Origin: Candidatus Woesearchaeota archaeon
GTDB taxonomy: Archaea; Nanobdellota; Nanobdellia; Woesearchaeales; UBA12501
Assembly: GCA_026394915.1 (NCBI GenBank)
Contig: JAPLZS010000003.1
Coordinates: 1 to 17,047, forward strand
Length of the DNA: 17,047 nucleotides
Reading direction: 5' to 3'
In this document: positions 1 through 16,221 of the stretch, one piece after another
Layout of the letters: every line of letters starts with the position of its first letter
How positions within the stretch are numbered: the stretch's first letter is position 1
The notes under the pieces: model-generated
Databases searched by the model: none
The model's input: only the letters and a program-made list of their open reading frames with translations
Told to the model about the DNA's origin: nothing
Translations under genes and position numbers: made by a program

Positions 1-2489
1 TCTATAAATATCCTTTTTATCCTGAATACATCATCTCCTTGGTAATTTGCGCCGTCTTCAACAGTCAGCAAACCCTGATAACCCGCGTCTTTTGCAATAG
101 ATATCAACTTGTCATTATACCATCCTACTGGCCATGCGAAATATTTCACATCCTTCCCTATCTTTTCTTCCAGTATCCTCTTGGATTCCTTTATCTCTTG
201 TTCTGCATCTTTTTCTGTCTTGCCAGCTGTCTTGCCGTCTACCCATGTCACAAGATTGTCCTGCTTGTCCCATGGATGAGTCATGCTGTGAGAGCCTATC
301 TCAAAATTAGGATTTTTTGATATATCTATTATATCATTCCAGCCCATGTACGGTCCGCCTATGCCTGTTCCAGGGAATATCCAGAATGAGGCCTTGAAAC
401 CGTATTGGTTCAATATAGGAATAACATCTTTTATGCTGATCCATCCATCATCGAATGTGAGCACAATCGCTTTTTCAGGCACAGCAGCTCCTGTTTTCAT
501 GAAATTGACAAGATCTGTGATGCTTATTGTCTTATATCCCTCGTCATTTAGGTATTTCATCTGCTCAGAGAACTTCTCAACAGAGATTATAGTCTCTCCT
601 GGTTTTCCATCCTTGACTGCATGGTATATTAATACAGGAACGCCTTTGCCTGAGTTTACGCTTTGCTGACTATATGCGTTGATTCCTGTGCTTGTTGCTG
701 TTTTTGGAGCATCTAATGTCTGAGTTTGACTACTTTTTGCGTTTGATGTAAGGTATTCATTTATGTCAACAGGCCCTCTCTCAAAAATGACTTTTGTGCC
801 CACTTCAATTGCCTTGTAAAGCTCTCTCGCTTCTGGAGGGTTCATCCTTACACATCCAGCAGAGTCTTTGCCTGTTGTCTGCAGCTTTGATGCATGGATC
901 TCAATGCAGCTGCCAGTATATCCTTTTGCCCGGTCTTCTGAATTAGGATAATCTATTCCCATCACAACAGCACTCTCCCCTCCATATCCAGGTTGCCAGA
1001 GGCTTTCGCTTTTGAAGCCCACATTGGGATCTGTTGTGAAAATGCTTCCTGGTCCGCAGAATGCCTTGTTAGGCAGTATCTTGTTCCCCCCATCCTCATC
1101 AGAGAAGACTGACGCTTTCCATTTTATTTTATAGGTCCCTATAGGAGTTTTATGATCGTTTTCTTTTGTCTTTCCCATCCCATTCTCACCTATTGCAACT
1201 TCATATGAATGGACTATCTTCCCTCCTGAAATAAGGTATAATATGTTCTTGCTTCCATCATCTCTTCCATCAATCACGATGAATGTCTCCCCAGAAACTG
1301 CTGATGAAGATTGAGTGTCCTGAGCTGACGAACCTTGTCCTGCTCCTGTTGAGGTTTCTCCTGATGAGCCAGTCATGCCATTGATGAATATCTCCTCAAG
1401 GCTGTTCACTCTTGCAAAGCCGATATTGAATCCAGGTTTCTCTTCCTGCTGTTTTTTTCTGTATGCGATAAATTCAGAATAAGCAGTGTCTTTTAGGTGG
1501 CTTCCTCCGCTTGATTCAGAAACCCACAACTGATCTCCTTTCTTGTATACCATAGCTATATGATCCCATGTACTTGTTGTCATCCAGTTGCCTGTTCCTC
1601 CATATGGCCTGTCAAGAAGTATAATATCTCCTGGCCTAAGTTCTGATTCAGATATCATAGTTGTGTACTTAGCGCTTCCCCATTGTTCTGCTATAGGCCC
1701 ATGTCCTTTGCTTATGGGATCAAGCCCATTCTGGGCTCTTATATAATTGACAAGGTAAGAGACCCATCCAGAGCAGTCAATCCCCGTCTCAACATCGCTT
1801 CCACCAATCACATAAGGAGTATCATAATATTTTTGAGTCTGTTCCTCAATCATCTTTGAGACTGCAGCTTCAACCTCAGAACTGCTCTTCTTCAGCTCTT
1901 CCTGCTTCTGCTCATCTGCCTTTTGTGTTATATCTGCTTTTTTCTCAACAACTATATCAAACTCAAGAGGATTTGCGGCAATCCCTCTTATCTGATCGCC
2001 TTCTGATATAAATGTGTAATCTATATCATATTTATTCAGCTCCTGTCCAGGATACTTGCTGAACTGGTTTGCCAGGGATTCGCTTACAGCAGAGCTCATC
2101 ATAGAGCTTATGTCATCAGGATAACATCTCTTTAATACCCCATTCTCTGTGACCTGCCAGAAATTATATCCATAATAATCATTGCAGGGAGAGACCTCAG
2201 AATCAAAATAATACATTCCTCCCTGTCTTGATAGCTGGCTTGCAGCAGAGTCAACAGCAATCTTTGCTGCGCTGTCCACAAAAAGAAGCGCTTTCTCTGC
2301 CTTTGCAGCTGTCTGGAGTATGGCAAGCTGGTTCTCTCCTACATAAGCCTGCTGGACCTCTGGCGCGTTTATCTCAGCATACCACATATATATTATGAAT
2401 GCGAGTATTATACCCCCTATTATTATAGTGTCTGTTATCTGGGCCTTTTTCCCTATTCTCGTTTTGTAAACGTTTGTTATCATTCTCAT
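1..2489 (-). CDS. Giant anchored enzyme: NlpC/P60 + YkuD L,D-transpeptidase + NodB deacetylase, partial (3' end outside window)
   Basis: The frame is open for 829 codons from ATG 2489 (ATGA overlap with the preceding stop) to the left edge. KKAQITD (14-20) and one helix (about 21-37) anchor it. A helical region follows, then three enzyme domains. NlpC/P60 peptidase (about 215-335): Cys239 in DCSGW, His310 in WDHIAMVY, with Glu325 a possible third residue. YkuD L,D-transpeptidase (about 400-572): His532 in EIHAS and Cys546 in SAGCVRM. NodB polysaccharide deacetylase (from about 615): Asp680-Asp681 in TFDDGW and His734/His738 in SHSMTH, then FAWPVGWY. A Ser/Thr/Gly-rich linker joins the first two and a similar one precedes NodB. 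These families normally cut, cross-link and deacetylate bacterial peptidoglycan. Key residues look intact. Together with the amidase three genes upstream this forms a wall-directed operon. Confidence 0.9.
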   Translation of the reverse strand, partial: MRMITNVYKTRIGKKAQITDTIIIGGIILAFIIYMWYAEINAPEVQQAYVGENQLAILQTAAKAEKALLFVDSAAKIAVDSAASQLSRQGGMYYFDSEVSPCNDYYGYNFWQVTENGVLKRCYPDDISSMMSSAVSESLANQFSKYPGQELNKYDIDYTFISEGDQIRGIAANPLEFDIVVEKKADITQKADEQKQEELKKSSSEVEAAVSKMIEEQTQKYYDTPYVIGGSDVETGIDCSGWVSYLVNYIRAQNGLDPISKGHGPIAEQWGSAKYTTMISESELRPGDIILLDRPYGGTGNWMTTSTWDHIAMVYKKGDQLWVSESSGGSHLKDTAYSEFIAYRKKQQEEKPGFNIGFARVNSLEEIFINGMTGSSGETSTGAGQGSSAQDTQSSSAVSGETFIVIDGRDDGSKNILYLISGGKIVHSYEVAIGENGMGKTKENDHKTPIGTYKIKWKASVFSDEDGGNKILPNKAFCGPGSIFTTDPNVGFKSESLWQPGYGGESAVVMGIDYPNSEDRAKGYTGSCIEIHASKLQTTGKDSAGCVRMNPPEARELYKAIEVGTKVIFERGPVDINEYLTSNAKSSQTQTLDAPKTATSTGINAYSQQSVNSGKGVPVLIYHAVKDGKPGETIISVEKFSEQMKYLNDEGYKTISITDLVNFMKTGAAVPEKAIVLTFDDGWISIKDVIPILNQYGFKASFWIFPGTGIGGPYMGWNDIIDISKNPNFEIGSHSMTHPWDKQDNLVTWVDGKTAGKTEKDAEQEIKESKRILEEKIGKDVKYFAWPVGWYNDKLISIAKDAGYQGLLTVEDGANYQGDDVFRIKRIFI

Positions 2490-3058
2490 TTCAATTCAGT
2501 CACTAAAGTGTTCTTTATCACATTCCCATCTGATGATGAGATGAATGACTCTGAGCTTATCCTTTCTGTTCTTGTTATCACATTCAATGTGCTGAAGCTT
2601 CCGAAAGAAAGCTGGCTTCCTGCAGGCACCTTAAACGGCATATTGACTACAATGTGCCAGCTTCCTTCTCCATAAGCAGCATCCATCAACGGGACAATCC
2701 TTTTCTCAAGAGCATCATTGTAGGCCTTCTGCTTCTCTTGATCTGTTTCTGTAAAATACCTGCTTATAAGCTCGGATATTGTCATCTTCTTGAAAGAAGC
2801 ATCAATCTGATTCAGTGTCTCTGAATTCACTGGCGTGTTAAGCAAGGCATTTAATGCAGCATCGTTCTTCAATGTTTGCCCTTTTTCTTCTATATCCTTC
2901 TTATCATTTGAGTTGCCTCCGAACAGAAGCCATCCAAAAACAAGGGTTATGAATATGAACCCAAGTATTATGAACAATGCTTCTTTCATTGGAGGGGCCC
3001 AGCTCCCTCTTTTGCCTTTGCAAATCTGAATCTTGTTTTTTGCGGCCATCTTTTTCAT
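2486..3058 (-). CDS. Membrane-anchored extracytoplasmic protein (190 aa)
   Basis: A basic N-terminus (KNKIQICKGKRGSW) and the W-x-x-x-M-K-E-A-L motif lead into one hydrophobic helix (about residues 26-46). The outer part has an Asn/Lys/Glu-rich linker, then a helical stretch with NALLNTPVN, ISELISRYF and YNDALEKRI, then a beta-rich C-terminal half. No Cys occur in the outer part, unlike most neighbours. I do not recognise a named family. The ATGA overlaps with both the preceding gene and the following large enzyme gene point to coupled translation, so it is a good candidate for a partner of that enzyme. Confidence 0.8.
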   Translation of the reverse strand: MKKMAAKNKIQICKGKRGSWAPPMKEALFIILGFIFITLVFGWLLFGGNSNDKKDIEEKGQTLKNDAALNALLNTPVNSETLNQIDASFKKMTISELISRYFTETDQEKQKAYNDALEKRIVPLMDAAYGEGSWHIVVNMPFKVPAGSQLSFGSFSTLNVITRTERISSESFISSSDGNVIKNTLVTELK

Positions 3059-3615
3059 CCTGCCCTTGATTCAATCAACATGAGCCCTGCAAATCTTTCG
3101 TCGCTATCCCCTGATTTCAATACTACATAATATGGGTCTTTCCTTATCTGATAATTTGTTATGCACTTGCCGAAGTTCTTTGATTCGACAGAACCTATAA
3201 TCTTGTTTGTGTCCAGATTTTTTAGTTGAATCCTGAAACAGCCTGAAATATAGTTCTCAGGCACTTCATAACAGAGATCCATCCTTTCCTGGCCGAATTT
3301 TGAAAGATCTATGATGCCAGGATATACTCTGTTGGTCGCAGTGTCCTGGTAAGCAAAACACAGAGGTGAATTGAAGAATCTGCTTTGTATGACCACATTC
3401 TCTGAGTTGCCCAGGAAAGAATTCTCCTGCACTTGGTATCCTGTCACGAATATGGCGAACACCATGGCTGCCAAAGGGATTATTATAGCAAGCACCGCAA
3501 CCAGAGGGAATTCATGGGTAAAAGCATATGCATCTTCTTCTCCCCCCTCTTCTTCATCATCTTCTGAGCTGCCGGTCTGCGCCTTTTTTGAATTAAACAG
3601 TTCTTCCCAGATCAT
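3055..3615 (-). CDS. Anchored protein with SKKAQ motif and acidic segment before the helix (186 aa)
   Basis: The N-terminus carries SKKAQ (residues 9-13), but unlike its neighbours an acidic stretch (about 15-28, SSEDDEEEGGEED) separates it from the hydrophobic helix (about 36-58). The outer domain has four Cys (PLCFAY, DLCYEV, SGCFRI, GKCITN), probably two disulfides, and is otherwise unknown to me. The ATG has GGGAG 4 bases upstream and lies 10 bases after the amidase stop. It overlaps the next gene as ATGA. It may be a partner of the amidase or of the large enzyme in the same unit. Confidence 0.8.
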   Translation of the reverse strand: MIWEELFNSKKAQTGSSEDDEEEGGEEDAYAFTHEFPLVAVLAIIIPLAAMVFAIFVTGYQVQENSFLGNSENVVIQSRFFNSPLCFAYQDTATNRVYPGIIDLSKFGQERMDLCYEVPENYISGCFRIQLKNLDTNKIIGSVESKNFGKCITNYQIRKDPYYVVLKSGDSDERFAGLMLIESRAG

Positions 3616-3625
3616 TTGTCTCCCA

Positions 3626-4666
3626 TCATTTGTAATACTCCTCTATTGCAGCGATTATGTCTGATGCTGCTTTGTTCACATTATCAGGATTGCTGAAGAA
3701 CTTCTCCTTTACATTGTCATTGATATTGCCCATCTCAAGGCTCAATGCAGGACCAGGCGATGCAGAGCCAAGCACTTTAAGAGGGTCTTCATCTTTTATG
3801 CTATTAATGTCAATGCTATTGGCAGTAACTGAATAAAAATCAGGCCGCAGCTTGTTTGCCATGATACATGAGAGTTTTGATGACTTCTCGTCAGAAGAAG
3901 GGAATCTGATAATCGCTTCATTCTGTCCTGATTCAGATGAGCCTATATGGATGCTTATAATCATGTTCTTATTGGTATCTTTTATCTCGCTTATCTTTGC
4001 AGAAAGTTCCTGCTGCTGCACAGCCCTGCATTGGTATCCCTTTGCTTTGCATTGCATCACTGCGCTGTCCGCTATCTGCTTTGTAATCCTGTACTCCTCA
4101 AGGCCCATTCCTGTATTGCCCTTATCTGATGCATAGTGGCCAGGTTCAAAAAGTATAATCTGCTGAGTGATATCTGCTGATGTCTGTATCTGGGTGCATC
4201 CTGTCTCTATGATCTCCCGTTTTGTAACAACATCTATCTTTCCATTGGATAGTATGAATGCAAAATAAGAAGGAGCCTGGAGGCTTATCATAAGCGGATA
4301 GGCAGAACTTCCCCCATAAGGATATGTAGATTCTAATCCTTGCACAGATTCTGCCGGAAAAGCCCCAACATAGTTTCCTGCATTCTCTGAATGCCTTGAG
4401 ACATGCACAAGATAAGGGATAACAGAGATATCATATCTGTTCTTGAACTGCTGGATATATTTGTTGTCATAATCAACGATTGCATTCCCAGGGATTCCAT
4501 GAAGAGCATCTATTGTCAGCGCAACATCATGCGCAAGATAGACCTTCTCAAAATCAATCTGACTTCCTTTCTCTTTCGCAAACCACAACAGAAGAAGAGC
4601 AAAGCTGACGCTCACTACAATCTTTATTATGCTATATACTATAACTCCCTTTTTTTTGACCTTCAT
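3626..4666 (-). CDS. Membrane-anchored Amidase_3-type N-acetylmuramoyl-L-alanine amidase (346 aa)
   Basis: The C-terminal half (about residues 168-346) matches the zinc amidase family Amidase_3 (AmiC/CwlC-like), which cleaves the bond between N-acetylmuramic acid and L-alanine in peptidoglycan. Visible landmarks, counting from ATG 4666: EPGHY with His177, Glu191 in GLEEY, His240 in ISIHIG (the three Zn ligands) and the catalytic Glu311 in LSLEMGN, in the right order and at family-like spacing. The N-terminus KVKKKGVIV leads into one hydrophobic helix (about 10-29), so the enzyme is anchored outside. Residues about 35-165 are an additional domain I cannot name. The start at 4666 fits a leaderless mRNA. 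It heads the unit that also contains the NlpC/P60-YkuD-NodB gene. Catalytic residues appear intact; the true substrate in an archaeon without murein is open. Confidence 0.85.
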   Translation of the reverse strand: MKVKKKGVIVYSIIKIVVSVSFALLLLWFAKEKGSQIDFEKVYLAHDVALTIDALHGIPGNAIVDYDNKYIQQFKNRYDISVIPYLVHVSRHSENAGNYVGAFPAESVQGLESTYPYGGSSAYPLMISLQAPSYFAFILSNGKIDVVTKREIIETGCTQIQTSADITQQIILFEPGHYASDKGNTGMGLEEYRITKQIADSAVMQCKAKGYQCRAVQQQELSAKISEIKDTNKNMIISIHIGSSESGQNEAIIRFPSSDEKSSKLSCIMANKLRPDFYSVTANSIDINSIKDEDPLKVLGSASPGPALSLEMGNINDNVKEKFFSNPDNVNKAASDIIAAIEEYYK

Positions 4667-4687
4667 GAGCATTTTAAAGAAGTATTC

Positions 4688-4752: not shown

Positions 4753-6033
4753 TCAACTGGCTGAAACACACATATCCTTCTCTTCATCCCATCTGCATCC
4801 AGGCGAAAGTTTGCACGGATTATCATCCTCACAGAACTCTTTCTTGCCGACATACCCTCCCAGGACATTGTTATAATCAGAACACTGCTTTATCTCACTG
4901 CAGGACTGGCATGGGGTTGTAAATCCCTTGAATATGCCGCAGTTAAGAGTGCTTTTTTCACAAAGATCAAAAGCATCGCTTAGATAACAAGGGCAGCTTT
5001 TTTCGATGAATTCGCACTGTATATACTGCCTTTCTTTTGTGAATGTATCATAGAATTCAGAACCTTCACCAGTCATTGGCAACTCTTTAAGCCCTTCATC
5101 AAGAAGCTTTACAGCATTGTCATAATTCTTAAGCCTGTACTGCACCATTGCCCTGTTGAAATATACCTGTTCCATCAATGTCGCCTTATTCAGGGCATCA
5201 ATATAGCCTGGATTAGCCACAATGCTGTCATAATCCTTGCCTGCGCTTGCCAGGCTTTCAGGAGTGTTCTCTTTGAATGAGTCAAATGCGCTGTTGTAGA
5301 GTTTTGTAGCTTCTATCCTGTTCTTCTCTAGCTGGTCTGCATTCTGGTCAATGCATCCGTCTCTATTCAGGCATACTGCAACAAACTGAGAAGATCCTTT
5401 CTCAACCCACACCTGAATGTTATCTTCTGGCATGCCAAAGACTTTGCTGTCAAAGGCTCCTTCTGATGTAGTGGCTCTTCCCATGAAAAATCCTCCCTCG
5501 CTCCCATAATCTACATAATTAAGGCCTTTTGCAAAATCATCTTTTTTGATAGAATATTGGATGTCAACACCAAGATCTTTTTCGCACTCCATATACTTCT
5601 TTTTAGGATCAATTTCCCCAGGTTCTGAAGCCTTGCAGTAATATGCTTCTTTTCCGAACACAGTTGTGTGTTCAATCTGCCTGCAGAGGCATACGCATGA
5701 TGATGGTCCGCATTCAGGAGGCCTTGGAAACTCAAAATCCATGCCCCAATCCCTTATTATCTTTATGCCCTGGCTTCCTGATGAGAATCCCAGTATCGCA
5801 GAATCTGAATCCATCTTTATCAGCAAAGCCTGGGTTCTTGTCCCCTGGCCTTTCTGGCCAGTCTCTCGTATCTGTTCTGCAATCTTGACATAAGCATCTT
5901 CTGTGTTCTTGGCAGAGATCCAACCAAATTGCCTTGCAATGGATGTTGCAGGCACAAAAACTGTTATCAGCATTATGATGATTCCCATTATGACGACAAT
6001 CATCACAGTTACTGCTGCTTTTTTTTGGTTCAT
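4753..6033 (-). CDS. Membrane-anchored protein with TPR and Cys-rich C-terminus (426 aa)
   Basis: MNQKKAAV precedes a hydrophobic helix (about residues 7-29). Residues about 108-150 hold a Cys cluster (CGPSSCVCLC). Residues 288-320 match a tetratricopeptide repeat (YFNRAMVQYRLKNYDNAVKLL, spread of consensus Y, A, Y, A positions), with helical sequence before it from about 235. The last about 85 residues contain about 13 Cys (CPC, CQSC, CKLSPGC and others), so disulfides and an outer location are expected. A TPR on the outside of an archaeal cell is not common and suggests protein-protein contacts in an assembly. It starts 10 bases after the preceding stop (AGGATGA upstream) and is the last gene before a new promoter. 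Confidence 0.8.
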   Translation of the reverse strand: MNQKKAAVTVMIVVIMGIIIMLITVFVPATSIARQFGWISAKNTEDAYVKIAEQIRETGQKGQGTRTQALLIKMDSDSAILGFSSGSQGIKIIRDWGMDFEFPRPPECGPSSCVCLCRQIEHTTVFGKEAYYCKASEPGEIDPKKKYMECEKDLGVDIQYSIKKDDFAKGLNYVDYGSEGGFFMGRATTSEGAFDSKVFGMPEDNIQVWVEKGSSQFVAVCLNRDGCIDQNADQLEKNRIEATKLYNSAFDSFKENTPESLASAGKDYDSIVANPGYIDALNKATLMEQVYFNRAMVQYRLKNYDNAVKLLDEGLKELPMTGEGSEFYDTFTKERQYIQCEFIEKSCPCYLSDAFDLCEKSTLNCGIFKGFTTPCQSCSEIKQCSDYNNVLGGYVGKKEFCEDDNPCKLSPGCRWDEEKDMCVSAS

Positions 6034-6042
6034 TTTATATGA

Positions 6043-6594
6043 TCATCCTACTGGGTTCACTATGTTCTGCTGCACCTGATTGCTGCATGCCACTCCGATG
6101 TCTGCATCGCATTTTGTAGGAATCTGGTTTGCAGCGCATCCGCATCTTGTTCCTACCGGAGTCTTTGTGCAATCAACAGTATTTACCTCTTCTCCATCTG
6201 CTGGCGCACACTGTGGGGCGCAGCATTGATCAATCTTATTGAGTATCTTATCATGGTCAAAATCAAGATTGCATACACTGCTTGAGCAGTTTGTGTATCC
6301 TTGCAGAGCTGTGCATCCGCACCACTCTCCTGGGCATTCTCCTATCTCAAAACCAGCTGGATTGCATGCAGCAGCGCAGCATTTGTCATCCTTGTTTGTT
6401 GCATAGTCGCCGTCATAATCTCCTACCCAATTTATTTTATCAATAGTACTCTGTCCTGCTCTTGGATACAAAACAATGAAAAGCAAGCCTGCTATAACAC
6501 TTACAGCCAATACGGTCAGCAGGGCGCTCTTCATGTCATCCCATCCCTGCGCTTTCTTGTTCATTGATAAATTCCTGAATAATCCTACCATCAT
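6043..6594 (-). CDS. Anchored protein with two thrombospondin type 3-like Ca-binding Cys repeats (183 aa)
   Basis: MNKKAQGWDDMK (residues 11-22) is a class III-like signal with the W-D-D-M-K motif, followed by a helix (about 23-43). The outer part is a tandem duplication. Unit 1 (about 59-108) starts DYDGDYATNKDDKCC and unit 2 (about 111-170) starts DFDHDKILNKIDQCC. The D-x-D-x-D-x-x-x-N-x-x-D-x-C spacing is that of thrombospondin type 3 repeats, which bind Ca2+. Each unit then has C-x-P and a CGC motif. Start: the double ATG at 6594/6591 has GAGGTG just upstream and overlaps the preceding stop; a later ATG (residue 11) is possible. Likely a Ca-stabilised spacer or adhesion module at the surface (inference). 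Confidence 0.85.
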   Translation of the reverse strand: MMVGLFRNLSMNKKAQGWDDMKSALLTVLAVSVIAGLLFIVLYPRAGQSTIDKINWVGDYDGDYATNKDDKCCAAACNPAGFEIGECPGEWCGCTALQGYTNCSSSVCNLDFDHDKILNKIDQCCAPQCAPADGEEVNTVDCTKTPVGTRCGCAANQIPTKCDADIGVACSNQVQQNIVNPVG

Positions 6595-7409
6595 CCCACC
6601 TCACATGAGCTTATCGCTCCTATCTTCTCCCTATAATCAGTTATCTGCCATGAATAGAGGCCAGAGAGCCAGCTTCCTGTGTCATCTCCATCCCTTGCAA
6701 TTATGAAACATACATGGCTGCTGTCTGCCCTATAAAGTTTGAATTCTTTATCTCCTGCATCAAACTGCTCTTTTGTTCCTAATACATTAAATCCTTTATA
6801 ATCTTTAGGATATCTTATCTCAAATGATCTTTTGAATGGGGAATTAGAAAGGCCACTCCATTTTAGCTGGAACATATCTTCTGAAACATATTCTTCCTGA
6901 TCTGCCTCTTTTTTATTCCTTAAATCCCTTGATGTGCATAACTGCAGGCCAGACACCTCAAATATGCTTAAAGTCTGTCCCGGTACTTCTCTTCCTATAC
7001 TGTTTGATGGCTCTGATGAATTAAAAATGTATGCGATAATCTTTCCGTTCCCATTCTCAAAATTTATTGTGTAATCTGGAGAAAATGTTGGTCTTTCAAT
7101 ATTGCATGTGCATTTTTCTTTTGTCATCTGCTTGCATTCCAAGAAGCTTTTTTTGATTGATTCAAGCGCAGCAACTGCTTCTTTTTCTTGTTCTGTCTTT
7201 GGCGTTACTACATTAAGATCTGATGATTTTGGTATTTTTGTTTCCTCTATAAGCCCCATTTTCTGCATTATAGTTATCACTCCTGGAAGCGAGGTATAAA
7301 AAAGGAAACCAAGTATTGCAATAAGCCCGAATATGATTATGCTCCATTCAAGCAGGATATTCCATATCCCTTTTTTGTTATTAAGACTCATCTTTAGATG
7401 GTTCATCAT
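6591..7409 (-). CDS. Membrane-anchored extracytoplasmic protein (272 aa)
   Basis: The start is a double ATG (7409 and 7406) that overlaps the preceding TGA, with GGAGGG just upstream; the spacing of 5 bases favours the second ATG, which would give 271 residues. LNNKKGIWN precedes a hydrophobic helix (about residues 17-40), then an outer domain with CTCN near residue 110 and two more Cys. Segments such as KRSFEIRYPKDYKGFN and VCFIIARDGDD look like strands of a beta-rich domain. No named family is recognised. It overlaps the next gene as ATGA. Confidence 0.8.
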   Translation of the reverse strand: MMNHLKMSLNNKKGIWNILLEWSIIIFGLIAILGFLFYTSLPGVITIMQKMGLIEETKIPKSSDLNVVTPKTEQEKEAVAALESIKKSFLECKQMTKEKCTCNIERPTFSPDYTINFENGNGKIIAYIFNSSEPSNSIGREVPGQTLSIFEVSGLQLCTSRDLRNKKEADQEEYVSEDMFQLKWSGLSNSPFKRSFEIRYPKDYKGFNVLGTKEQFDAGDKEFKLYRADSSHVCFIIARDGDDTGSWLSGLYSWQITDYREKIGAISSCEVG

Positions 7410-7573
7410 AGCCCTCCTGGAGTTGAGCAGCTCTTGAAGAATAATGCTATCTTTGTGTCTCCTGTTTTCCAGAGAGCGTACAATACCCCCAATACAACTA
7501 CAAGGAATATCAATCCGATTATGAGTGTCCTGAGGAAACCCAAGTCTCCTTTTTTATGATTTAGCAGTTTCAT
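7406..7573 (-). CDS. One-helix membrane microprotein (55 aa)
   Basis: I choose ATG 7573: a GAGGAT Shine-Dalgarno lies 7 bases upstream. An upstream in-frame start at 7663 would add 30 residues that overlap the coding part of the preceding gene and would put a non-hydrophobic tail before the signal. The product starts MKLLNHKKGDLG, again KKG before a hydrophobic helix (about residues 14-36), and ends with a short tail with one Cys (FFKSCSTPGGL). It overlaps both neighbours (20 bases upstream, ATGA downstream), so it is part of a tightly coupled unit. Function unknown. Confidence 0.75.
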   Translation of the reverse strand: MKLLNHKKGDLGFLRTLIIGLIFLVVVLGVLYALWKTGDTKIALFFKSCSTPGGL

Positions 7574-8309
7574 CTTTTGTATCCTCGCTCTCTGTGAAAT
7601 CTCCGCATTGGCTTGCTTTGTTAAGATCAACCAAAAATATAGCATCTGCATCGCTTCTCTCAATGAAAAGCGACGAAACAGAGTCTCTATATGTAATCGC
7701 GTAGTATGTACCTGGAATTATATCATCTAATACCATATTCAGTCCTGAGAGAACTGTCTGGTCAGGTTTGATACTTGCATCTGCAGGCGTCATATAATTC
7801 CAATAGGTTGGTTTGGCGGTGTCATAATCAAGATAATTCAGCTTCAGCCATTGGTTGAAATCATCTTTTTTTATGATCTTGTCCACATTGTTTACTTTAT
7901 TGACTTTGAATGTAAAACAGTTATAGCATTCCATCTGACCAAACTTCATCTTGAATGGATCAAACTCTTTTCCGCCTTGGCCAAGAGCCCACCAGCAATT
8001 CCTCATGTTCTCTGCTATATTTCTCATTATCTCTGAATCTGTTTTCCCTTCTATTGTCAATGGGCCTACTGTCTTGCATGTCACAGGCCATGGCCTATTC
8101 ACATCTGCAAGACTAGTAACAACTGAGACTTCACTTATCTTTTTATATAGGATACTCTCTCCAAGAAGAGTGTCATGGCATTTCCTGATGTCAAATGTCT
8201 TTTCGCAGCCCCTCAATGCAGTGCCTGTCAATGATATCAGAAGTGTAAGCGTGGCAAGTGCAAGAAGTATGTAGATAAGTGTCATTGTCTGCCCTTTTTT
8301 GTTTGTCAT
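7554..8309 (-). CDS. KKGQ pilin-like anchored protein (251 aa)
   Basis: The start MTNKKGQTMT is a textbook archaeal class III (prepilin peptidase) signal, with cleavage expected between Gly and Gln at residues 6-7, followed by a hydrophobic helix (about 8-30). The outer domain is about 220 residues and contains CEKTFDIRKC, a CYNC motif near residue 128, and an acidic C-terminal tail (ESEDTKDETAK). The helix-strand segment KKDDFNQWLKLNYLDY resembles IKKDDFAKGLNYVDY in the TPR protein of this unit, which suggests a shared fold. An AGGT with suitable spacing precedes the ATG. The 3' end overlaps the next gene by 20 bases. Family not recognised by name. Confidence 0.8.
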   Translation of the reverse strand: MTNKKGQTMTLIYILLALATLTLLISLTGTALRGCEKTFDIRKCHDTLLGESILYKKISEVSVVTSLADVNRPWPVTCKTVGPLTIEGKTDSEIMRNIAENMRNCWWALGQGGKEFDPFKMKFGQMECYNCFTFKVNKVNNVDKIIKKDDFNQWLKLNYLDYDTAKPTYWNYMTPADASIKPDQTVLSGLNMVLDDIIPGTYYAITYRDSVSSLFIERSDADAIFLVDLNKASQCGDFTESEDTKDETAKS

Positions 8310-8310
8310 T

Positions 8311-8439
8311 TTAGACCTGGCCTGAAAGATATCCCTTTGCCTTGATCAGAGCATATACTAATGATACTAACAATATTATTGCAAGTAACCAAAGCACTAT
8401 CTTCATAATCTGCGCTCTCTTTTTAACTCGCCAAAGCAT
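8311..8439 (-). CDS. One-helix membrane microprotein with KKRAQ signal (42 aa)
   Basis: This 42-codon gene begins with MLWRVKKRAQIM, then a single hydrophobic helix (about residues 13-31) and a short polar tail ending GYLSGQV. The KKRAQ motif before the helix is the same class III-like signature seen in the other products of this cluster. Two further facts support it: the TATA box at 8469-8461 is placed as for a leaderless start at this ATG, and its TAA is one base from the next ATG (TAAAATG), as in an operon. It would be easily missed because of its size. Role unknown; possibly a minor subunit or helper of a membrane complex. Confidence 0.7.
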   Translation of the reverse strand: MLWRVKKRAQIMKIVLWLLAIILLVSLVYALIKAKGYLSGQV

Positions 8440-8460
8440 ATCAGAACATATATAAAAGAT

Positions 8461-8469
8461 ATTTATAAA
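8461..8469 (-). promoter_or_regulatory. Archaeal TATA box for a leaderless transcript
   Basis: The coding strand reads TTTATAAAT here, a near-perfect archaeal TATA box, with A-rich bases (CAAAAGC) just upstream as in a BRE. Its first T is exactly 30 bases before the A of the ATG at 8439. At the usual spacing, transcription would start at or next to that ATG, so the mRNA would be leaderless. The box lies in the 98-base gap 8440-8537, which holds no gene. Confidence 0.75.
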
Positions 8470-8537
8470 GCTTTTGAAACAATAAGGGGTATATCATATA
8501 ATGATTACATAATCTAGTATCCGCAGAAGCATATTGA

Positions 8538-8888
8538 TCAATCAAGAACTCCTGTTGTCTGGGGCTGGTCATAGATGAGGTTCATGCAGCATTGAGCTCC
8601 TCCTGTGCAGTCTCCATAGCTCTCCCCTTTGTATTTCTCCTTGCCGAGCTTCTGATTGACCTCTTCGCATGTCCCAAGGCTTGTATAGCTGCCATCTTTT
8701 TCTTTGACAATCTGGTTTGAGCATATTCCTTGACATGCGCTTAATGCTTTTTTGCCCCCGCCAAAAACAGCCATGTATATGACTATCACGACAAAAATCA
8801 ATACAAGGAAAAGAACTATCACCTTAAATTCTTCCCATGTTCCTTGCGCTCTTTTTGAATCATATACCCTCATTTTAATCATTCTCAT
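8538..8888 (-). CDS. Small anchored protein with six-Cys module ending in Cys-Cys (116 aa)
   Basis: I choose ATG 8888, which overlaps the preceding stop as ATGA; ATGs at 8882 and 8873 are alternatives, and a longer reading from 8900 is less likely. DSKRAQGTWEEFK (residues 10-22) is a class III-like signal with the W-x-x-x-K motif, followed by a hydrophobic helix (about 23-43). The outer part has six Cys (52, 56, 74, 94, 100, 101), the last two adjacent, with DCTGGAQCC near the end. It is the third six-Cys protein of this unit. After its TGA comes a 98-base gap with a promoter for the next block. No named family is recognised. Confidence 0.8.
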   Translation of the reverse strand: MRMIKMRVYDSKRAQGTWEEFKVIVLFLVLIFVVIVIYMAVFGGGKKALSACQGICSNQIVKEKDGSYTSLGTCEEVNQKLGKEKYKGESYGDCTGGAQCCMNLIYDQPQTTGVLD

Positions 8889-9160
8889 CCTGAACAGCAT
8901 ATCGTGCCCATTGTGCAGTCAAGGGTTCCATAATCTATTCCGCCTGCATCATCACATTGTACTTTGTATTTGCATGTTCTTCCAAGGCTAGGCATATCAC
9001 ATTTATCTCCTGAATATGTTGCTCCTGTCTTGTTCAAGGCAAACCTTGCCTTTCCTATCTGTCCCGTGAATATAAGTATCAGCACAATCAATATTATTAG
9101 CGCCAGTGCAGCAACTATAATAAGTTCGATTGACATATCCATTCCTTTCTTTGATCTCAT
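8885..9160 (-). CDS. Small anchored protein with six-Cys module ending in Cys-Cys (91 aa)
   Basis: The product starts MRSKKGMDMSIE, a class III-like signal with Glu after the Gly, followed by a hydrophobic helix (about residues 12-32). The outer part carries six Cys (54, 63, 69, 82, 88, 89) and ends in ICCSG. It is paralogous to the 92-residue protein at 10236-10514. The start is well supported: AAGGAGGAT, a strong Shine-Dalgarno, lies 5 bases upstream of the ATG, 11 bases after the preceding stop. Its own TGA overlaps the next gene as ATGA. Function unknown; likely a minor pilin-like or anchored disulfide-stabilised domain. Confidence 0.85.
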   Translation of the reverse strand: MRSKKGMDMSIELIIVAALALIILIVLILIFTGQIGKARFALNKTGATYSGDKCDMPSLGRTCKYKVQCDDAGGIDYGTLDCTMGTICCSG

Positions 9161-9171
9161 TTTTATCCTCC

Positions 9172-10194
9172 TTATCCTATATTTATGATGTACTTATCTC
9201 CATAAAGCTTCCAATCTGCGCCTTCTCTGTACATCAATGTGAATGTGTATACTCCATTGGTCAACAGCTCGTATGTTCCGCCTTTAACGTTTTCTTCTGT
9301 CTTAGAGGGGTTTACAGCCGGGTCTGTATCATAAATAGTGGACTCTTTTCCTGTCTTCTCTTCATTTACTATCATCTTCCATGCACCAGCATATTTGACA
9401 ACATAATCCACAAATTGTGTTGGTATTCCTGAGGTTGAGGTATACTGAGAATTTTTAGTAATCTTTTCACTCATATCCGTATACATGTCAAAGGAAATCG
9501 TTTGCGCTGCTGCTTCTTGTCCAGCTCCTGTTGATGTTCCTGTATCTGCCCCTCCTGCTGCATTCACCTTTGCTTTTATGGACATTGAGCTTATCTGATC
9601 TTCATTTGAATTATACCTCACTATATTCATTATATACTCTTTTGTTATGTCTGCATTAGCCTCAGTGCCAATCTTGCTCAGGATGAAAGTAAGTTCTTGG
9701 CATGCTGCCTTATCTTTAATGCTCTTAGAAGCGGTCTTTCCATCTTTCAATGGCATTATCAGATCTACACTGCACTTCTTTATGTCTCCTGTTCCCTTAA
9801 GAATGAATTTAGCATCCTCCCCTTTAGTTAACGTAATCTCTTCACTTACCTCTGCTCCATCTTTTGTTATGGTGATATCTCCTGTCTTGCCGGCTCCTGC
9901 TGATATTGACCCCCCTTTGCAGCATGTCCTGTCTCCGCTGCTTTCAGAGAATATTGACCAGAATGCGACATTAGAGGCGTCAACACTGCCTCCTGAGCAG
10001 GTCTTCATACACTTGAATTCACCTTTGCCGAGCAATCCTGTGACAACCCCTTCACAGCCGATACCTTTCTTGAATATCATAACTGCCATTATTACTATCC
10101 CAACTAAAATCGCTATGAGAACAAGAGTAAGCACTGCTTCTTTTATGTCGCTCCAGGCTAATGCTTTCTTTGAATCAAATAATCTGTTTTTCAT
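9172..10194 (-). CDS. Membrane-anchored Cys-Cys protein with beta-rich C-terminal region (340 aa)
   Basis: The N-terminus has DSKKALAWSDIKEA (residues 7-20) and a hydrophobic helix (about 21-43). Cys 47, 62, 66, 91 and 92 follow, again with an adjacent Cys pair, close to the module of the flanking small proteins. A long beta-rich part follows, with a Gly/Ala/Thr-rich linker near residues 213-230 (GGADTGTSTG) and an Ig-like end (GTYELLTNGVYTFTLMYREG). The W-S-D-I-K motif is shared with three other proteins in the window. The start ATG has AGGT at good spacing and lies 41 bases after the preceding gene. Probably an extracytoplasmic structural or binding protein; no named family recognised. Confidence 0.8.
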   Translation of the reverse strand: MKNRLFDSKKALAWSDIKEAVLTLVLIAILVGIVIMAVMIFKKGIGCEGVVTGLLGKGEFKCMKTCSGGSVDASNVAFWSIFSESSGDRTCCKGGSISAGAGKTGDITITKDGAEVSEEITLTKGEDAKFILKGTGDIKKCSVDLIMPLKDGKTASKSIKDKAACQELTFILSKIGTEANADITKEYIMNIVRYNSNEDQISSMSIKAKVNAAGGADTGTSTGAGQEAAAQTISFDMYTDMSEKITKNSQYTSTSGIPTQFVDYVVKYAGAWKMIVNEEKTGKESTIYDTDPAVNPSKTEENVKGGTYELLTNGVYTFTLMYREGADWKLYGDKYIINIG

Positions 10195-10235
10195 ATTCAG
10201 ACCTGGCGTTTACAAAAGAATAAAAATATCAATAA

Positions 10236-10514
10236 TCATGTTGAAGCGACAGCAATGCAGCACACACCATCAATCAGCTTGCCTTCATTGTATTTTGCAT
10301 TTCCATTGAGGTCGCATGAATACTCTGACTTTTCAATCTCATATGTTCCTGAGCATCCCTCTTTTGTGCAAGTCCCTTTGTAAGATGAGCATTTCTCGAT
10401 AGAGCCTCTGAATATGCCCATCCTTCCTGAGAATATCACAACCAGCACCACAAATATAACCATGAGTATTGCCGCAACTATTATTAGATTAAGAGACATA
10501 TCTCCTTTTTTCAT
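10236..10514 (-). CDS. Small anchored protein with six-Cys module ending in Cys-Cys (92 aa)
   Basis: The N-terminus is KKGDMSLN followed by a hydrophobic helix (about residues 8-28). A short extracytoplasmic domain has exactly six Cys (42, 49, 54, 67, 85, 86), the last two adjacent. It is a clear paralogue of the 91-residue protein at 8885-9160: both have KKG-x-DMS, then LIIVAA, and a helix ending in IF-x-G-x-x-G. Start choice: GAGGTG lies 6 bases before the ATG at 10514, which is preceded directly by another ATG (10517). A longer form from ATG 10541 is possible if the transcript is leaderless from the TATA-like stretch near 10571. It heads a four-gene unit whose members share the Cys-Cys feature. 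Function unknown; the disulfide pattern suggests a small stable outer domain. Confidence 0.8.
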   Translation of the reverse strand: MKKGDMSLNLIIVAAILMVIFVVLVVIFSGRMGIFRGSIEKCSSYKGTCTKEGCSGTYEIEKSEYSCDLNGNAKYNEGKLIDGVCCIAVAST

Positions 10515-10517
10515 CAT

Positions 10518-10655
10518 TTTCACCTCATTTATCAAAATCAATCATATCTATATGGTCTATCTATATTATAATACAATGACTGATATCTTTGTATTATATA
10601 GCTCTATATATAAAATTTTCGGTAATTTTAATCTTAAAACCAGCACCTAATCTGC
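10518..10655 (-). promoter_or_regulatory. AT-rich intergenic region with candidate TATA boxes
   Basis: This 138-base gap separates the pilin-like block from the Cys-Cys block. On the coding strand it holds two TATA-like stretches: TTTATATAT at 10614-10606 and TTATAATAT at 10571-10563. With the usual 25-30 base spacing, the second would start a transcript near 10541, giving a leader of about 25 bases that contains the GAGGTG Shine-Dalgarno at 10526-10521. The first would give a leader of about 65-70 bases. No convincing terminator hairpin is seen; a short T-run after the preceding stop is weak. Confidence 0.5.
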
Positions 10656-11210
10656 TTAATAGGGCCTTGAGCATATTTCTAACATCACTTTGACATCTCC
10701 GTTTGTCACAGGTATTATCCACCAGCCAGGCCTTTCTTTTATGACATAATATCCCCTATCCAAAGAAGTTTTATTGCAGCCATTGTACTCCAGGAAAATG
10801 CCTGATATTGCCTCGCCTTTGTCTTTTGGTGGATCAGGCCCTTCATATGCCCTGAATCGGTAAGGCAGTTTCTGCACTTCAAGTGTTGATTTTAGCAATA
10901 TATCTACAGAATCCTTAAAAACTATGCATGGCTTTCCGCATTCAACCTCAGTCTCTCCTTCAACGCAGGCCTTGAGGAGCTCTGTCATGTCCATGCCTCC
11001 GCAGTTTGCGTCTGATATGCTTATTGCATTGAGAACATCCTGGGCAATGTGCGCTCTTACAAAGCTTGCCTGAACACTTGAAGGGGAGGTTGACATCGCC
11101 TTTATCACAAAAAGGAATCCTAGGACTATTATGACAACAACTATTGCTATCCCAATAATCTCAAGCTGGGATTTCTTTGATCTATTCATGCGCTTTATTG
11201 GGATGTCCAT
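10656..11210 (-). CDS. Pilin-like anchored protein with class III-type signal (184 aa)
   Basis: I choose ATG 11210: it overlaps the preceding stop as TGATG and has GAGGTG 8 bases upstream; a TTG one codon earlier (11213) is possible but less likely. RSKKSQLE at about residues 10-17 is a good class III (prepilin peptidase) signal, with Glu near the conserved place, followed by a hydrophobic helix (about 18-36). The extracytoplasmic part has five or six Cys, including CGG, ECGKPC and a C-terminal EICSRPY, which suggests disulfides. It is the last gene before a 138-base AT-rich gap, so it may end the first transcription unit. No named domain is recognised. Confidence 0.8.
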   Translation of the reverse strand: MDIPIKRMNRSKKSQLEIIGIAIVVVIIVLGFLFVIKAMSTSPSSVQASFVRAHIAQDVLNAISISDANCGGMDMTELLKACVEGETEVECGKPCIVFKDSVDILLKSTLEVQKLPYRFRAYEGPDPPKDKGEAISGIFLEYNGCNKTSLDRGYYVIKERPGWWIIPVTNGDVKVMLEICSRPY

Positions 11211-11740
11211 CAAGGGAACACCTCTATGCTTAATATTCCGATAGAGTACTGCGCATATCTCTTTATAGGATCCTTCAATGAAACTGGAATTTCCATGATC
11301 ACAGAACTTTTCTTATCTCTATTTTCAGGAGGATTGTTGTATATGGTCCACTTTCTCAGGCCGACAGCAGGATCAGTTGACGCAGGGAATATCTCTGTGA
11401 TATTCACAACACTGCTTCCAAAATCCCTCTGGTAAAACAGGAAAGCTTCCTTGTCCTGCGCCTGATCAACCAAGGAAGAGAAAGCATCAAGCTTGTAGAC
11501 ATCAAAGCAGACATCGATAAGGACGCTCTTCTCGCTGCACTGCAGCTCAGGCATATAAAGCATGTTCTCTGCAGTTGCGACAGCATCCTGTTCAAATCTT
11601 GTCCTCTGCAGTTCATTTATGGAGCTTTCCTGTATCTTTGAGTAGAACATGAATCCTATGACGACTATTATGAAGAAGATGAACAATACCATTATTGTCT
11701 CCATCATGTTTATCTGGGATCTTTTTGAAATTATATTCAT
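11210..11740 (-). CDS. Pilin-like anchored protein with class III-type signal (176 aa)
   Basis: The product starts with a short basic segment, SKRSQ at residues 5-9, then INMMET and a hydrophobic helix (about 15-33). Lys-Arg-Ser before Gln fits the archaeal class III (prepilin peptidase) signal, with the Glu at residue 14 close to the usual Glu position. The rest is a soluble extracytoplasmic domain with two Cys (C-S-E-K and D-V-C-F) that could pair. An AGGGA Shine-Dalgarno lies 6 bases upstream of the ATG. The gene is 31 bases after the preceding one and its TGA overlaps the next ATG by one base (TGATG), so translation is probably coupled. Exact family not recognised; a minor pilin or pseudopilin-like role is inferred. 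Confidence 0.8.
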   Translation of the reverse strand: MNIISKRSQINMMETIMVLFIFFIIVVIGFMFYSKIQESSINELQRTRFEQDAVATAENMLYMPELQCSEKSVLIDVCFDVYKLDAFSSLVDQAQDKEAFLFYQRDFGSSVVNITEIFPASTDPAVGLRKWTIYNNPPENRDKKSSVIMEIPVSLKDPIKRYAQYSIGILSIEVFP

Positions 11741-11771
11741 TTTATTCCCTTTTTCTGCATAATACTGATAA

Positions 11772-12884
11772 TCAATATATCCTAGGGCATGAATTTATTA
11801 TTGCGCCGTCGTTCCATGTGCTGAGCATGCTTATTGAACTGTAAAGGCCAAATACTTTACCTGTATCTGAGACATCATCCTCGTTTATATCAAATCCATT
11901 GAAGTATCCTGTTGAGTAATATATGCTGCATCCCTGGAATATCTCTCCTGATACTGCCTTTTCGCTCAATATATTCGACCTTTCTTCATACACGCCCGAA
12001 ACAAGATTCAGCCTCTTTACAGCATCATCCATGTTGCACTTGAAGTTCTGGAAGCTGTCTGAGTACACTGCGCCATAGGCTGACTGTATCCCCAGCGCAG
12101 GATAGCTGTTTGATATGCCTTCTTCATCATTGTCCAGGACAAAATCAGTCTTGCTCTTCTTGTAGAAATTCAATTCCGCTTTTCCGTCAGGCCATTTTGA
12201 GCTGTCTACCGGGTCAATCACAAGTGCGGTTATGGCAGGATCGCTCACTTTCTGCAGATTAGCAGGCACAACACCATTAAAATCTAAAACAGAGAAGAAC
12301 ACCAGCCTTATCCTCTGTTCGCCTTTATATTGTATGCTATCAGCAGAATCCACAATCTCATAGCTTAGATTTACAGGAAGATTGCTTATGAATTCAGTCT
12401 TGATTGATTCAGGCAGCGCAGAAGATGTGGAAGGCACAATGAAATAATATTTTATCTCAGGCACTGTCATATAGATAAAATTAGTCACCCTGAAGGGCAT
12501 GTCCCAGCTCTGAGTCCATGTGAGAAGCCTGTCGCTCCTCATCTCAGACGGAGCGAACAAGACGACATTTCCCTTGCTCTTTGACATTCCTCCGAGAGAG
12601 ATTGCGCAGTCGCAGCCTCCGCATGAATATGACATGGATGTTTTGAACATGTCGATCACATCCTGCCTGTTCTCGCTTGTCTTCTGGCCTGACATTATCT
12701 GGTCAATAGAATTGAGTATATCGACTGAAAGCTTCTTGTCAGAGACCGCCTTCTGCTTGCTTATTATTATGATGAAGAACGCAAGGATAAGCGCGCCTGC
12801 TATCAGGATGAATATCCAGTTGAACTGGACCTCGACAACAGCGTTCTTGTTTTTCTTTATTGTGCTTTTATTTGCCTTGTTCAT
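11772..12884 (-). CDS. Membrane-anchored pilin-like protein (370 aa)
   Basis: The N-terminus is Lys-rich (KSTIKKNKNA) and is followed by V-E-V-Q-F-N-W-I-F and one strong hydrophobic helix (about residues 22-42). A long extracytoplasmic region follows, with a compact Cys cluster CGGCDC near residues 88-93 and more Cys near the C-terminus (C-x-I-Y-Y; SCPRIY end). I do not recognise a named domain. The V-Q-F-N-W-I-F start resembles, from memory, anchored proteins found in DPANN genomes beside the next two genes; this is recollection, not a search result. The start ATG lies 7 bases after the TAA of the preceding gene, which itself contains an AGAAGGAAA stretch that may serve as a Shine-Dalgarno. 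Likely co-transcribed with its neighbours. Confidence 0.8.
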   Translation of the reverse strand: MNKANKSTIKKNKNAVVEVQFNWIFILIAGALILAFFIIIISKQKAVSDKKLSVDILNSIDQIMSGQKTSENRQDVIDMFKTSMSYSCGGCDCAISLGGMSKSKGNVVLFAPSEMRSDRLLTWTQSWDMPFRVTNFIYMTVPEIKYYFIVPSTSSALPESIKTEFISNLPVNLSYEIVDSADSIQYKGEQRIRLVFFSVLDFNGVVPANLQKVSDPAITALVIDPVDSSKWPDGKAELNFYKKSKTDFVLDNDEEGISNSYPALGIQSAYGAVYSDSFQNFKCNMDDAVKRLNLVSGVYEERSNILSEKAVSGEIFQGCSIYYSTGYFNGFDINEDDVSDTGKVFGLYSSISMLSTWNDGAIINSCPRIY

Positions 12885-12891
12885 ATTCTTG

Positions 12892-15800
12892 TTATTTCCT
12901 TCTTTTTGTCTTCATACTCTTTTTATTTTCAGGCTTTCCATATCTTTTCAGCTCATCATAGATATCCTTGTCCTTTGACCCGATATCCCCAAGAGCATCA
13001 AAAGCACCACTTTCCCCCTTTTTTTTGATAGCATCAAGTCTCATGTATATATTTTTTGTATCTCTCTCTGCACTCTCTTTCTCTCTTCCAGACCTTGCGC
13101 CCATGCCTGATCCTATAGTGCCTTCTCTTCTTGCTGGCTGGACCTTTCCGCCAAATGCTCCAAAAAGCTTAGCTCTCTCATCTGCTTTCTTGCTTTCTGC
13201 TTCATCAAGTCTTTTTCTTGCGATCTCATCCCTTTTTCTTTGCTCTTCAAGCATCCTTCTTTGCATCTCTGCCTGGGCTCTTCTCTGATCTTCCATCCTT
13301 CTTTCTCTGATTGCCTCTTCTTCCCTCTTTTCAGGAGTCAGAGGGGCAGGTTTTGCGGGAGGGAGGAATATCTTCTTATAAGCGAGATATCCGCTTCCAC
13401 CAAGCATCATCAGTATTCCGAATATTATCAATATGAGGCCAAAAGGAGATTTATTCCCAGATAGCGTTAAGGTCACTTTTTCCTTGCATGTTCCTGCAAT
13501 GCAGTTTCCTGTCAGGCAGTCATCATTTATGATGCAGCCTGAATCTATGCTGCATTTCTCAAGGCATGTGCCTCCGCAGTCAACATCCCCTTCATCCGGC
13601 CCCTTCAATCCGTCTGTGCATGTTGATTCAGCGCATTTTCCAATGTCAGGATTGCAGAATCCTGTCTTGCAGTCATCATCCATCCCGCACTCTTTTCCAG
13701 GATCGCATTTGAAGCCAAGAACAGAGCAGTATCCTCCGCAGTCAATATCGCTCTCTATCCTGTTAAGAGGCCCATTCTTTATTGCATCAGTGCACGTAGT
13801 CTCCTTGCATATGCCCCCACTGCAATAGTTTGACTTGCAGTCTGAATCCCCAATGCAGGCCATTGTCAGTTCACAGGGCGAGCATGAGCCTCCGCAGTCA
13901 AGATCAGTCTCATCGCCATTCTTCTTCAGGTCAGAGCATGATGATGCAAATTCTATCTCTATGAGCTTTGCTCCCGTTGCATTGTTTCCTACTTTGTCAT
14001 AAGCAATATAACAGACATATTGGGTGTCAGTTATCTCTAAACTGAAAGGAGGGCCCTGCAGAAGGATGTCTGCTGTGCAGTTCTTCTCTGCTTCCCCTGT
14101 TCCATAATAGAATTTTGACTCATCACAGCCAGATTCATCCTCGCATACCAGCTCAACAAAGGTCTTTCCGGTTGTCTTGTTCTCATTTATTGTCACAACA
14201 GGAGGATTCTTCTCAAGGCATGCCTGATCAGCCGGATCATATTTGACAGAGAATGATTTCGGCGATGCAGACTCAAGGCCCACACCATTGACAGCCTTTA
14301 CATCAAATGTGTACGTTGTTGAATTGTCAACTGCGATTGATTCTCCATCGCTGCCTTCGTTTATCTCTGATATCGAACTTCCAACATTTGTCCAGTTGAG
14401 GATCTGGGTTGTTCCGCTCTTTATCTCAATCATGAAATGATCTATGCCGGATTCCTTGTCTTCTGCGCTCAGGACCAAAGCAGGAGAGAATACAAATCCG
14501 TCATTTGAGCATGTGACAGGAGTTCCTGTTATATTGGGAGAGCCTGGCTTTGAGTTGTCTATTGTGAATGTGTAGCTGTATGTTTGCTCCTGCCTGATTG
14601 CTGCTGCAACGCTAACGCAATCTATATCATAAGTATAAGATCCATCCCCTAATGTTCCGAGATTGTATGAATAAGTTTTCTGGTCTGATTCATAAACAGC
14701 CATATTTGCGTAAGAACTTATGCTTCCCCCTTCTATCTGGCATGCTGACCTCTTGTTTGTGGCAGCAATCAGGTTTATTGTCTTGTTTGTGGTGTATCTT
14801 GGAGGGTATGTCACGCTTATGCCTAGGCCTTCTGATAGGTCAACTTCAAGTATTGCGCTCTGCTTTCCTGTTGTCCAGCCTGCCTTGTCCTCGCATTCAA
14901 AATATACTGTGTAAGATGCTTTTGCATCAGAAGGGACTATCTGTTTCTGGGTATTCTCTGTTTTGTATGTGTCAACATCATACCTATCAAAGTTCGAGAA
15001 AGCAGTCATATCATCATAATTCTTATCTTCATTGAAAGAATACCTGCATATCACTGGCTCATTAGTCGTTATATCGAGCAGCGCAGAGATCTCATTGCCT
15101 GACTCAGGATACTCGACAATCTTAGGCGGCACAAATACTGCGCTGTTCACCAAAGGGGGGACAGTATCGACTCCAACATCAAATCTTTTCTGGGAAACCC
15201 TTCCTTGGGTCTGGTCCTTGCAGAGTATGTAGAACTGGCCAGATGTTCCGAGTCCGAATATTCCGAATACATTGTCTATTGTGTGCTGCGGTTTCATGAC
15301 AGCAGGGCTCTCAAATGGCTTCAGTGTCGGGCTGTCAAAATTGTAAAAAGGATTTGCAACGCCTATCTTGCATACGGTGTTCTCCGCAACTCCATTCCTT
15401 GTTGTCCTTATTGTGAGATTGTTTACAGGCTGATTGGATATGCCCAGCCTAGGTTCTGTTATCATCATCTCTGTCTCTGTTATATCAAGATAGAAGAATT
15501 CATATGCAACAGCCGGATTTCCTGCAAGGTCTTCTACGCTTAGCTTAAGGATATAATATCCATTGAATAACGGATTCAGCGGAGTTATGCTCACTTTTGA
15601 TCCTGCTGTCTGATTCTTGACAGGCACATCAACAGGGTTCATGCGAAGAATGTAGAAATCATCTCCTGTTGCCACGAATTGCCTGAACGAATAATTATTC
15701 TCTTTCATGACATCAGTGCCTATGCCATAAAGATGCGCGTCATCAAGGATGACAGAATCATCAAAAACAACATCTATGGTAGGTATGACTTTGCTGACAG

Positions 15801-16209: not shown

Positions 16210-16221
16210 TAGAGACTGATT
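16202..16221 (-). other. Apparent frameshift junction inside the Ig-like gene
   Basis: The upstream frame stops at TGA 16204-16202. The downstream frame is closed by TAA at 16224-16222, so a switch must happen within these 20 bases. Reading one fewer T in the TTT at 16206-16204 joins the two parts as V-S-I-V-D-D-Y without loss of sense. The local order GTT TGA also resembles the CTT TGA type of +1 slip known from bacterial prfB, but no Shine-Dalgarno-like stimulator is visible upstream. Sequencing error, a real mutation, or programmed slippage are all possible. Confidence 0.6.

Follow-up and report, generated by a model that had tools for sequence, protein, structure and literature searches.

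A prepilin-like anchor family carrying varied wall-directed enzymes in a filament-type operon of Woesearchaeota

Introduction

Modular type IV pilins, among them PilB of Streptococcus sanguinis, carry a functional module on a pilin module with a class III signal, and the sections of the report concerned with them describe many architectures and a likely display at the tip (PMC8179133). Here we describe a comparable arrangement on a 17,047-base contig from Candidatus Woesearchaeota (G000:C72), the whole of which is called the window below: a gene at 3-2489 on the minus strand encodes a prepilin-like anchor domain followed by NlpC/P60, YkuD and NodB domains. Unlike in modular pilins, the carrier belongs to an archaeal order and to a separate anchor family, and its payloads are mostly peptidoglycan-directed and mostly lie ahead of a second conserved domain; a word search of the modular-pilin text returned no mention of archaea. 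The features of the gene and its relatives make it probable that Woesearchaeota present interchangeable enzymes against bacterial walls by means of a type-IV-filament-like surface machine, in which the product is the enzyme-bearing subunit. Woesearchaeota are widespread and uncultured archaea, and the question touched here is whether they live on bacteria.

Wall-lytic proteins in Woesearchaeota have already been reported, while the carrier, the exchange of enzymes and the NlpC-YkuD-NodB fusion were not found in the literature searched, most subscription papers lying outside its scope. The closest report concerns fam00969, murein-like lytic transglycosylases of up to 3,000 residues from Pacearchaeota and Woesearchaeota that were proposed to bind bacterial walls (Castelle et al. 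2021, PMC8204110). They are, like the proteins described here, large extracellular wall-lytic proteins of the same archaea, and may overlap the anchors that bear SLT domains; the part of the paper that describes them presents one domain type and is silent on a fixed slot, on exchange of enzymes, on an NlpC/YkuD/NodB fusion and on an operon. In the relevant sections of an account of vampiristic Woesearchaeota, a GH23 transglycosylase is taken as a sign of attack on bacteria, with neither a carrier domain nor a filament machine of the kind found here (Vigneron et al. 2022, PMC9723730). A murein-like transglycosylase is also noted, in the pertinent passage, for three DPANN genomes from oxygen-deficient zones (PMC10936187). 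Archaeal peptidoglycan hydrolases are described as prominent in Nanoarchaeota, and bacterial killing as shown for haloarchaeal enzymes, in a report whose relevant parts deal with modular enzymes with wall-binding domains and lack an anchored, filament-type carrier (PMC12352652).

No kinship was seen between our anchor and two carriers from other systems, VgrG and PrgK. VgrG spikes with lysozyme domains are machine parts that deliver wall-cutting domains to a neighbour. The type IV secretion system wall hydrolase PrgK, as its description outlines, is likewise a machine part that brings such domains to a neighbour (PMC11323569). Archaeal type IV pili, in the sections that treat them, have a TadC-like platform, for which the present system has a candidate counterpart, and share with it a secretion ATPase and prepilins, and for one nanoarchaeal ATPase clade cognate pilins were not identifiable; neither "amidase" nor "transglycosylase" occurs as a word in that paper (Makarova et al. 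2016, PMC4858521).

Results and Discussion

The first finding is that the gene at 3-2489 (minus strand) is a single unbroken frame of 829 codons, which starts at an ATG at 2489 and is open at the contig's 3' end, where the end of the gene is lost. The earlier note, made from the sequence alone, had described one uninterrupted frame with a KKAQ anchor and three enzyme domains, and this was borne out, all three domains scoring over Pfam curated cut-offs. Residues 1-205 (1875-2489) form the anchor domain, with KKAQ, a membrane helix, a long second helix and, in the structure model, a long N-terminal helix with a small beta sheet. The KKAQ motif does precede a hydrophobic helix, as expected of a class III-like signal; the description as an anchor of that type proved too narrow in that the motif heads a domain that is conserved over some 205 residues. 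The NlpC/P60 domain follows at residues 224-320 (1530-1820; C239, H310), the YkuD L,D-transpeptidase-type domain at residues 413-568 (786-1253; H532, S534, C546, R548) and the NodB, or Polysacc_deac_1, domain at residues 670-805 (75-482; D680, D681, H734, H738), all on the minus strand and with every catalytic residue named in the earlier note (C239, H310, H532, C546, D680/D681, H734/H738) at its predicted position. The margin is thin for NLPC_P60 (25.6 bits against a cut-off of 23, 2.6 bits above), which in the PDB finds weak matches to NLP/P60 chains (best E 0.0062), and wide for YkuD (67.2 against 23.4 bits) and for Polysacc_deac_1 (83.5 against 23.1 bits), in which the DD...HxxxH metal motif is present. 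The active-site motif of the YkuD domain is SAGC, where SHGC is usual.

Among NCBIfam models the best match of the NodB domain is PgaB, the poly-N-acetylglucosamine (PNAG) deacetylase (TIGR03938; 91.5 bits, below the equivalog cut-off of 321.9), with only 19.4 bits for the murein deacetylase PgdA (NF045820; equivalog cut-off 800); overall, PgaB/IcaB-type poly-GlcNAc deacetylases score highest and well over the PgdA type, all below their equivalog cut-offs. The assumption that this domain is a murein-type deacetylase was not supported, and its likeness to PgaB and IcaB suggests that it could deacetylate the poly-GlcNAc of biofilms. Such a likeness would also suit tethered scavenging enzymes that digest wall debris of dead bacteria and biofilm polymer without attacking living cells, as would the mixed payloads of relatives, which include phosphatase-like domains. 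However, the gene lies in a filament-type operon and not among free secreted enzymes, and we regard scavenging as a rather unlikely account. In a metagenome protein found alongside (P0004), a deacetylase, an SLT domain and SLBB polysaccharide-export domains are joined in one chain.

Judged from its sequence, the three-domain fusion is not chance, because three domains over their cut-offs stand in one frame and wall-directed domains stand behind the same anchor in many relatives. A full-length search found the NlpC, YkuD and NodB trio in no other protein among the 8000 candidates listed, which, with a draft assembly in 225 contigs, could point to an artefact, either a bacterial contig binned by mistake or an assembly chimera that fuses unrelated enzymes. 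This is highly improbable, since many genomes of the order have matches to the anchor and to the operon families, and parts of the fusion recur elsewhere: P0003 has a NodB domain followed by the second, C-terminal conserved domain (67% identity over 26% of the query), and the anchor of L219, from another family of the order, carries YkuD.

The second finding is that the trio, which had looked like an isolated oddity, is one payload within a modular family spread across the order. We collected 101 anchors, 62 from fetched regions (partly selected by length), 38 from named loci and that of L219, and scored them with payload profiles seeded from Pfam hits for nine wall-directed families (SLT, M23, NlpC/P60, M15, Amidase_2, Amidase_3, M74, YkuD and NodB). 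At least one of these families is present in 56 of the 101, which we call armed, and nine carry two or more; of the 62 anchor-bearing named loci, a less biased sample picked through the RPA gene, 28 are armed. The three-domain order of the window, which the earlier note proposed to seek in relatives, occurs once, in the window itself, and in no other of the 101. The payloads are diverse. For 62 anchors the Pfam tally, listed for up to 25 families, is led by SLT (15), M23 (14), NlpC/P60 (8), M15 (5), Amidase_2 (4) and VanY (4), and the families listed once include VgrG3-like_C, YkuD, NodB, C39_2, CHAP, TPM_phosphatase and PGA_cap; for the 38 it is SLT (4), VanY (4), M15 (3), M23 (2), Amidase_2 (1), Phage_lysozyme (1) and three more. 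One anchor, that of L094, carries a VgrG3-like C-terminal domain, and VgrG core domains are absent from the families listed for the 62 and the 38 anchors.

These enzymes occupy a consistent place. The first begins a median of 39 residues past the end of the anchor profile, and within 60 residues in 46 of the 56 armed anchors. A second conserved domain, detected with a profile seeded on a PSF motif, is present in 68 of the 101 anchors (30 of 45 unarmed, 38 of 56 armed), with a median start at residue 185.5 for the unarmed anchors and at residue 412.5 for the armed ones; in 34 of the 38 armed members that have it, the enzyme lies ahead of it. It is encoded by the next gene in 8 of 47 loci tested, and the window's protein is cut by the contig end ahead of the position where it would be expected.

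The payloads are labile, as the counts of changes on a tree of the anchor domains indicate. The armed or unarmed state changes at least 29 times over 98 tree rows, close to the mean of 31.9 for shuffled labels, and the label of the first domain 42 times against 51.5 when shuffled, on a tree in which most deep branches lack support. In a quickly built tree of anchor domains the window falls together with two genus-mates (SH-like approximate likelihood ratio test, 98). The contig of one genus-mate ends within the gene; the protein of the other, 1,770 residues long and open at both ends, has an anchor 40% identical to that of the window. It carries Amidase_3, C39_2, VanY and NlpC/P60 over their cut-offs, and Glucosaminidase and M15_3 score slightly below theirs.

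The base protein itself looks old and short, and insertion of enzymes looks to be mainly a trait of this order, since nearly all frames listed from other orders are short. A whole-protein search of 60 genomes, the window's own included, matched 38, many through residues 1-205 alone, and a profile was built from an alignment of 16 anchor domains, in which G51, G90, C102, W111, C122 and P124 are invariant. With it, the family was detected in 271 of 352 order genomes (among those of good quality, 145 of 180) and in 177 of the 279 genomes in a sample of the phylum; 40 of the 177 belong to other orders of the class. Frames within the order reach 1,770 residues. For the 40 genomes, 25 frames were listed: 24 measure 150-309 residues, and one of 467 residues has a Metallophos insert. 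This last anchor (L240, G379:C60, 9747-11138), with its calcineurin-like phosphoesterase insert, indicates that the slot takes more than wall enzymes.

The armed gene is the last of a conserved operon of prepilin-like proteins. The gene before it (2486-3058, 190 residues) has a prepilin-like start and an end that overlaps the start of the armed gene; it is preceded by family K0 (3055-3615, 186 residues) and family K2 (3626-4672), a membrane-anchored Amidase_3 protein that keeps H179, E193, H242 and E313, all on the minus strand. Within four genes upstream of the anchor, K0 is found in 56 and K2 in 47 of 61 loci, and the gene directly ahead of the anchor is less conserved. Of 48 aligned K2 members, the H, E, H, E set is intact in four, that of the window included; the domain is missing from 12, and the rest are altered at one or more of these positions. 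Because its place in the operon is kept while so few hold the catalytic set, K2 may be a former wall enzyme turned structural part. The start pattern [KR][KRN][AGS] followed by a membrane helix occurs in 461 of 553 operon frames in the 61 loci, compared with 13 of 263 downstream frames, and in 16 of the 18 frames of the window.

Downstream of the anchor, on the same strand, an RPA-like gene is found in 47 and a RadA-like gene in 25 of the 61 loci; NCBIfam scores liken the follower to replication factor A without reaching the equivalog cut-offs, and identify the conserved gene after it as RadA, above cut-off. This linkage would fit a filament for DNA uptake, whose enzymes open bacteria or loosen debris while RPA and RadA handle the incoming strands. 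We consider such a role unlikely, for both are housekeeping genes and in three of nine loci read from other orders (L232, L233 and L240) an RPA-like gene is missing from the stretch read beyond the anchor. When named genomes were scanned for the RPA-like gene, 80 loci resulted, 61 of them titled Woesearchaeota, 11 Nanoarchaeota, 2 Nanoarchaeia and 6 otherwise. One locus titled Candidatus Aminicenantes bacterium (L157) is probably mislabelled and a counterpart of archaeal G052:C75.

The window's own genome is a draft of 1.25 Mb in 225 contigs that is 76% complete with 0.17% contamination. The earlier note had placed the DNA in a DPANN archaeon that should lack murein, and this stands: the contig comes from an archaeon of the Candidatus Woesearchaeota order, and neither Mur_ligase_M (PF08245) nor the penicillin-binding transpeptidase (PF00905) has a match in this 76% complete genome. 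The enzymes might instead remodel an envelope polymer of the archaeon itself, murein-like or of another kind. Four YkuD frames in the genome speak for this, as do PF00905 matches in 10 of 193 genomes of the order and a stretch in another such genome (L224, G014:C2, 420-10196) with homologues of MurA, MurB, MurG, MraY, MurF and MurC; of these homologues three score above their curated cut-offs, and the stretch may be contamination. The lack of matches to both families in the window's genome speaks against it, as do Mur_ligase_M matches in 129 of 336 order genomes that are mostly single and at most three per genome, the one single-match case identified being FolC, and the differing payloads of genus-mates, odd for a maintenance enzyme. 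An own-envelope role is improbable. Lytic domains are common and penicillin-binding transpeptidases rare across the order, with SLT lytic transglycosylases in 110 and YkuD in 31 of the 193 genomes; judged by eye, many of the SLT domains fall in genes other than that of the anchor. Further YkuD proteins of 348-1003 residues occur in the window's genus (L220, L221 and L004; G001:C4, G000:C73 and G000:C49), some adjoining each other and some apparently with a membrane span ahead of YkuD.

Putative parts of a filament machine accompany the operon in some loci of other orders of the class. All nine loci read there hold the anchor behind K0 and K2. A secretion ATPase and a protein with eight to nine predicted membrane spans (counted with a hydropathy script in five loci) precede the operon in L237, L238 and L239, and the multi-span protein also does so in L234 and L236. 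The ATPase is T2SSE by Pfam in L237 and L238 and FlaI/TadA-like by NCBIfam in L239, below equivalog cut-offs, and the multi-span protein has no Pfam platform match in the three loci scanned. In the window's genome, a relative of the ATPase (1134 bits against the profile of the other-order ATPases, with the FlaI, TadA and VirB11 families below cut-offs) lies with the start of the multi-span protein on another contig. T2SSE has matches in all 60 genomes of a sample and Peptidase_A24 in 57 of them, including the window's own, where it would make prepilin cleavage possible. Read from its genes, the system is type-IV-filament-like, and we infer its assembly. That the ATPase stands upstream in three of the nine loci slightly lowers our confidence in the filament subunit proposed above.

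The most economical reading of these genes is that the wall of a bacterium is the target, as had been suggested, and a contacting bacterium is the likeliest one, since murein enzymes would be of little home use to an archaeon without murein. As an enzyme-bearing filament subunit, the protein would have its anchor signal cleaved by the prepilin peptidase and would join a short filament or a filament tip, so displaying its payload outside the cell, where it could be pressed onto the wall of a contacting bacterium. Peptide or amide bonds would be the targets of the NlpC/P60 domain and the neighbouring Amidase_3 protein, and acetyl groups on surface poly-GlcNAc or glycan those of NodB. YkuD would either cleave cross-links or fasten the apparatus to a peptide stem, for which the linkage to Lpp by LdtA/B/C in E. 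coli offers a model. The outcome might be local wall opening or gripping, in the service of feeding, DNA uptake or episymbiosis. More tentatively, and as a possibility that we rate below even, the order might have its own contact-dependent wall-breaching machine, whose terminal subunit is the holder of exchangeable wall enzymes and whose payloads track hosts or prey. If so, it would correspond, in archaea, to the tail tip of a phage or the spike of a type VI secretion system, and the version in the window would cut, unmask and covalently fasten within one polypeptide. The conserved carrier with its exchangeable enzymes offers proteins to express and assay and a marker for labelling cells in natural samples, and payload chemistry may hint at the identity of the bacterial partner. 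It would also carry the idea of modular pilins over to archaea and to payloads that are enzymes.

The remaining genes of the window, on the minus strand as far as 15936, continue the operon upstream. Family K10 (4753-6033, 426 residues) has TPR-like matches below cut-off and is preceded by seven prepilin-like genes at 6043-10541 (183, 272, 251, 120, 91, 340 and 101 residues), family K3 lying at 7554-8309, and by families K6, K8 and K11 at 10656-12884 (185, 176 and 370 residues), with prepilin-like starts. A protein of 1014 residues (12892-15936) has an Ig-like domain (27.9 against 27 bits) and a start that is also compatible with an ordinary secretion signal. Two overlapping frames of 85 and 281 residues at 15952-17047, which are the broken frames excepted from the start pattern, resemble one long surface-protein gene split by a frameshift or assembly error. 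Very long surface proteins occur upstream in the operon elsewhere, and in that of G048 (L117, 1-17232) the upstream frame has at least 5,744 residues and is adhesin-like by eye.
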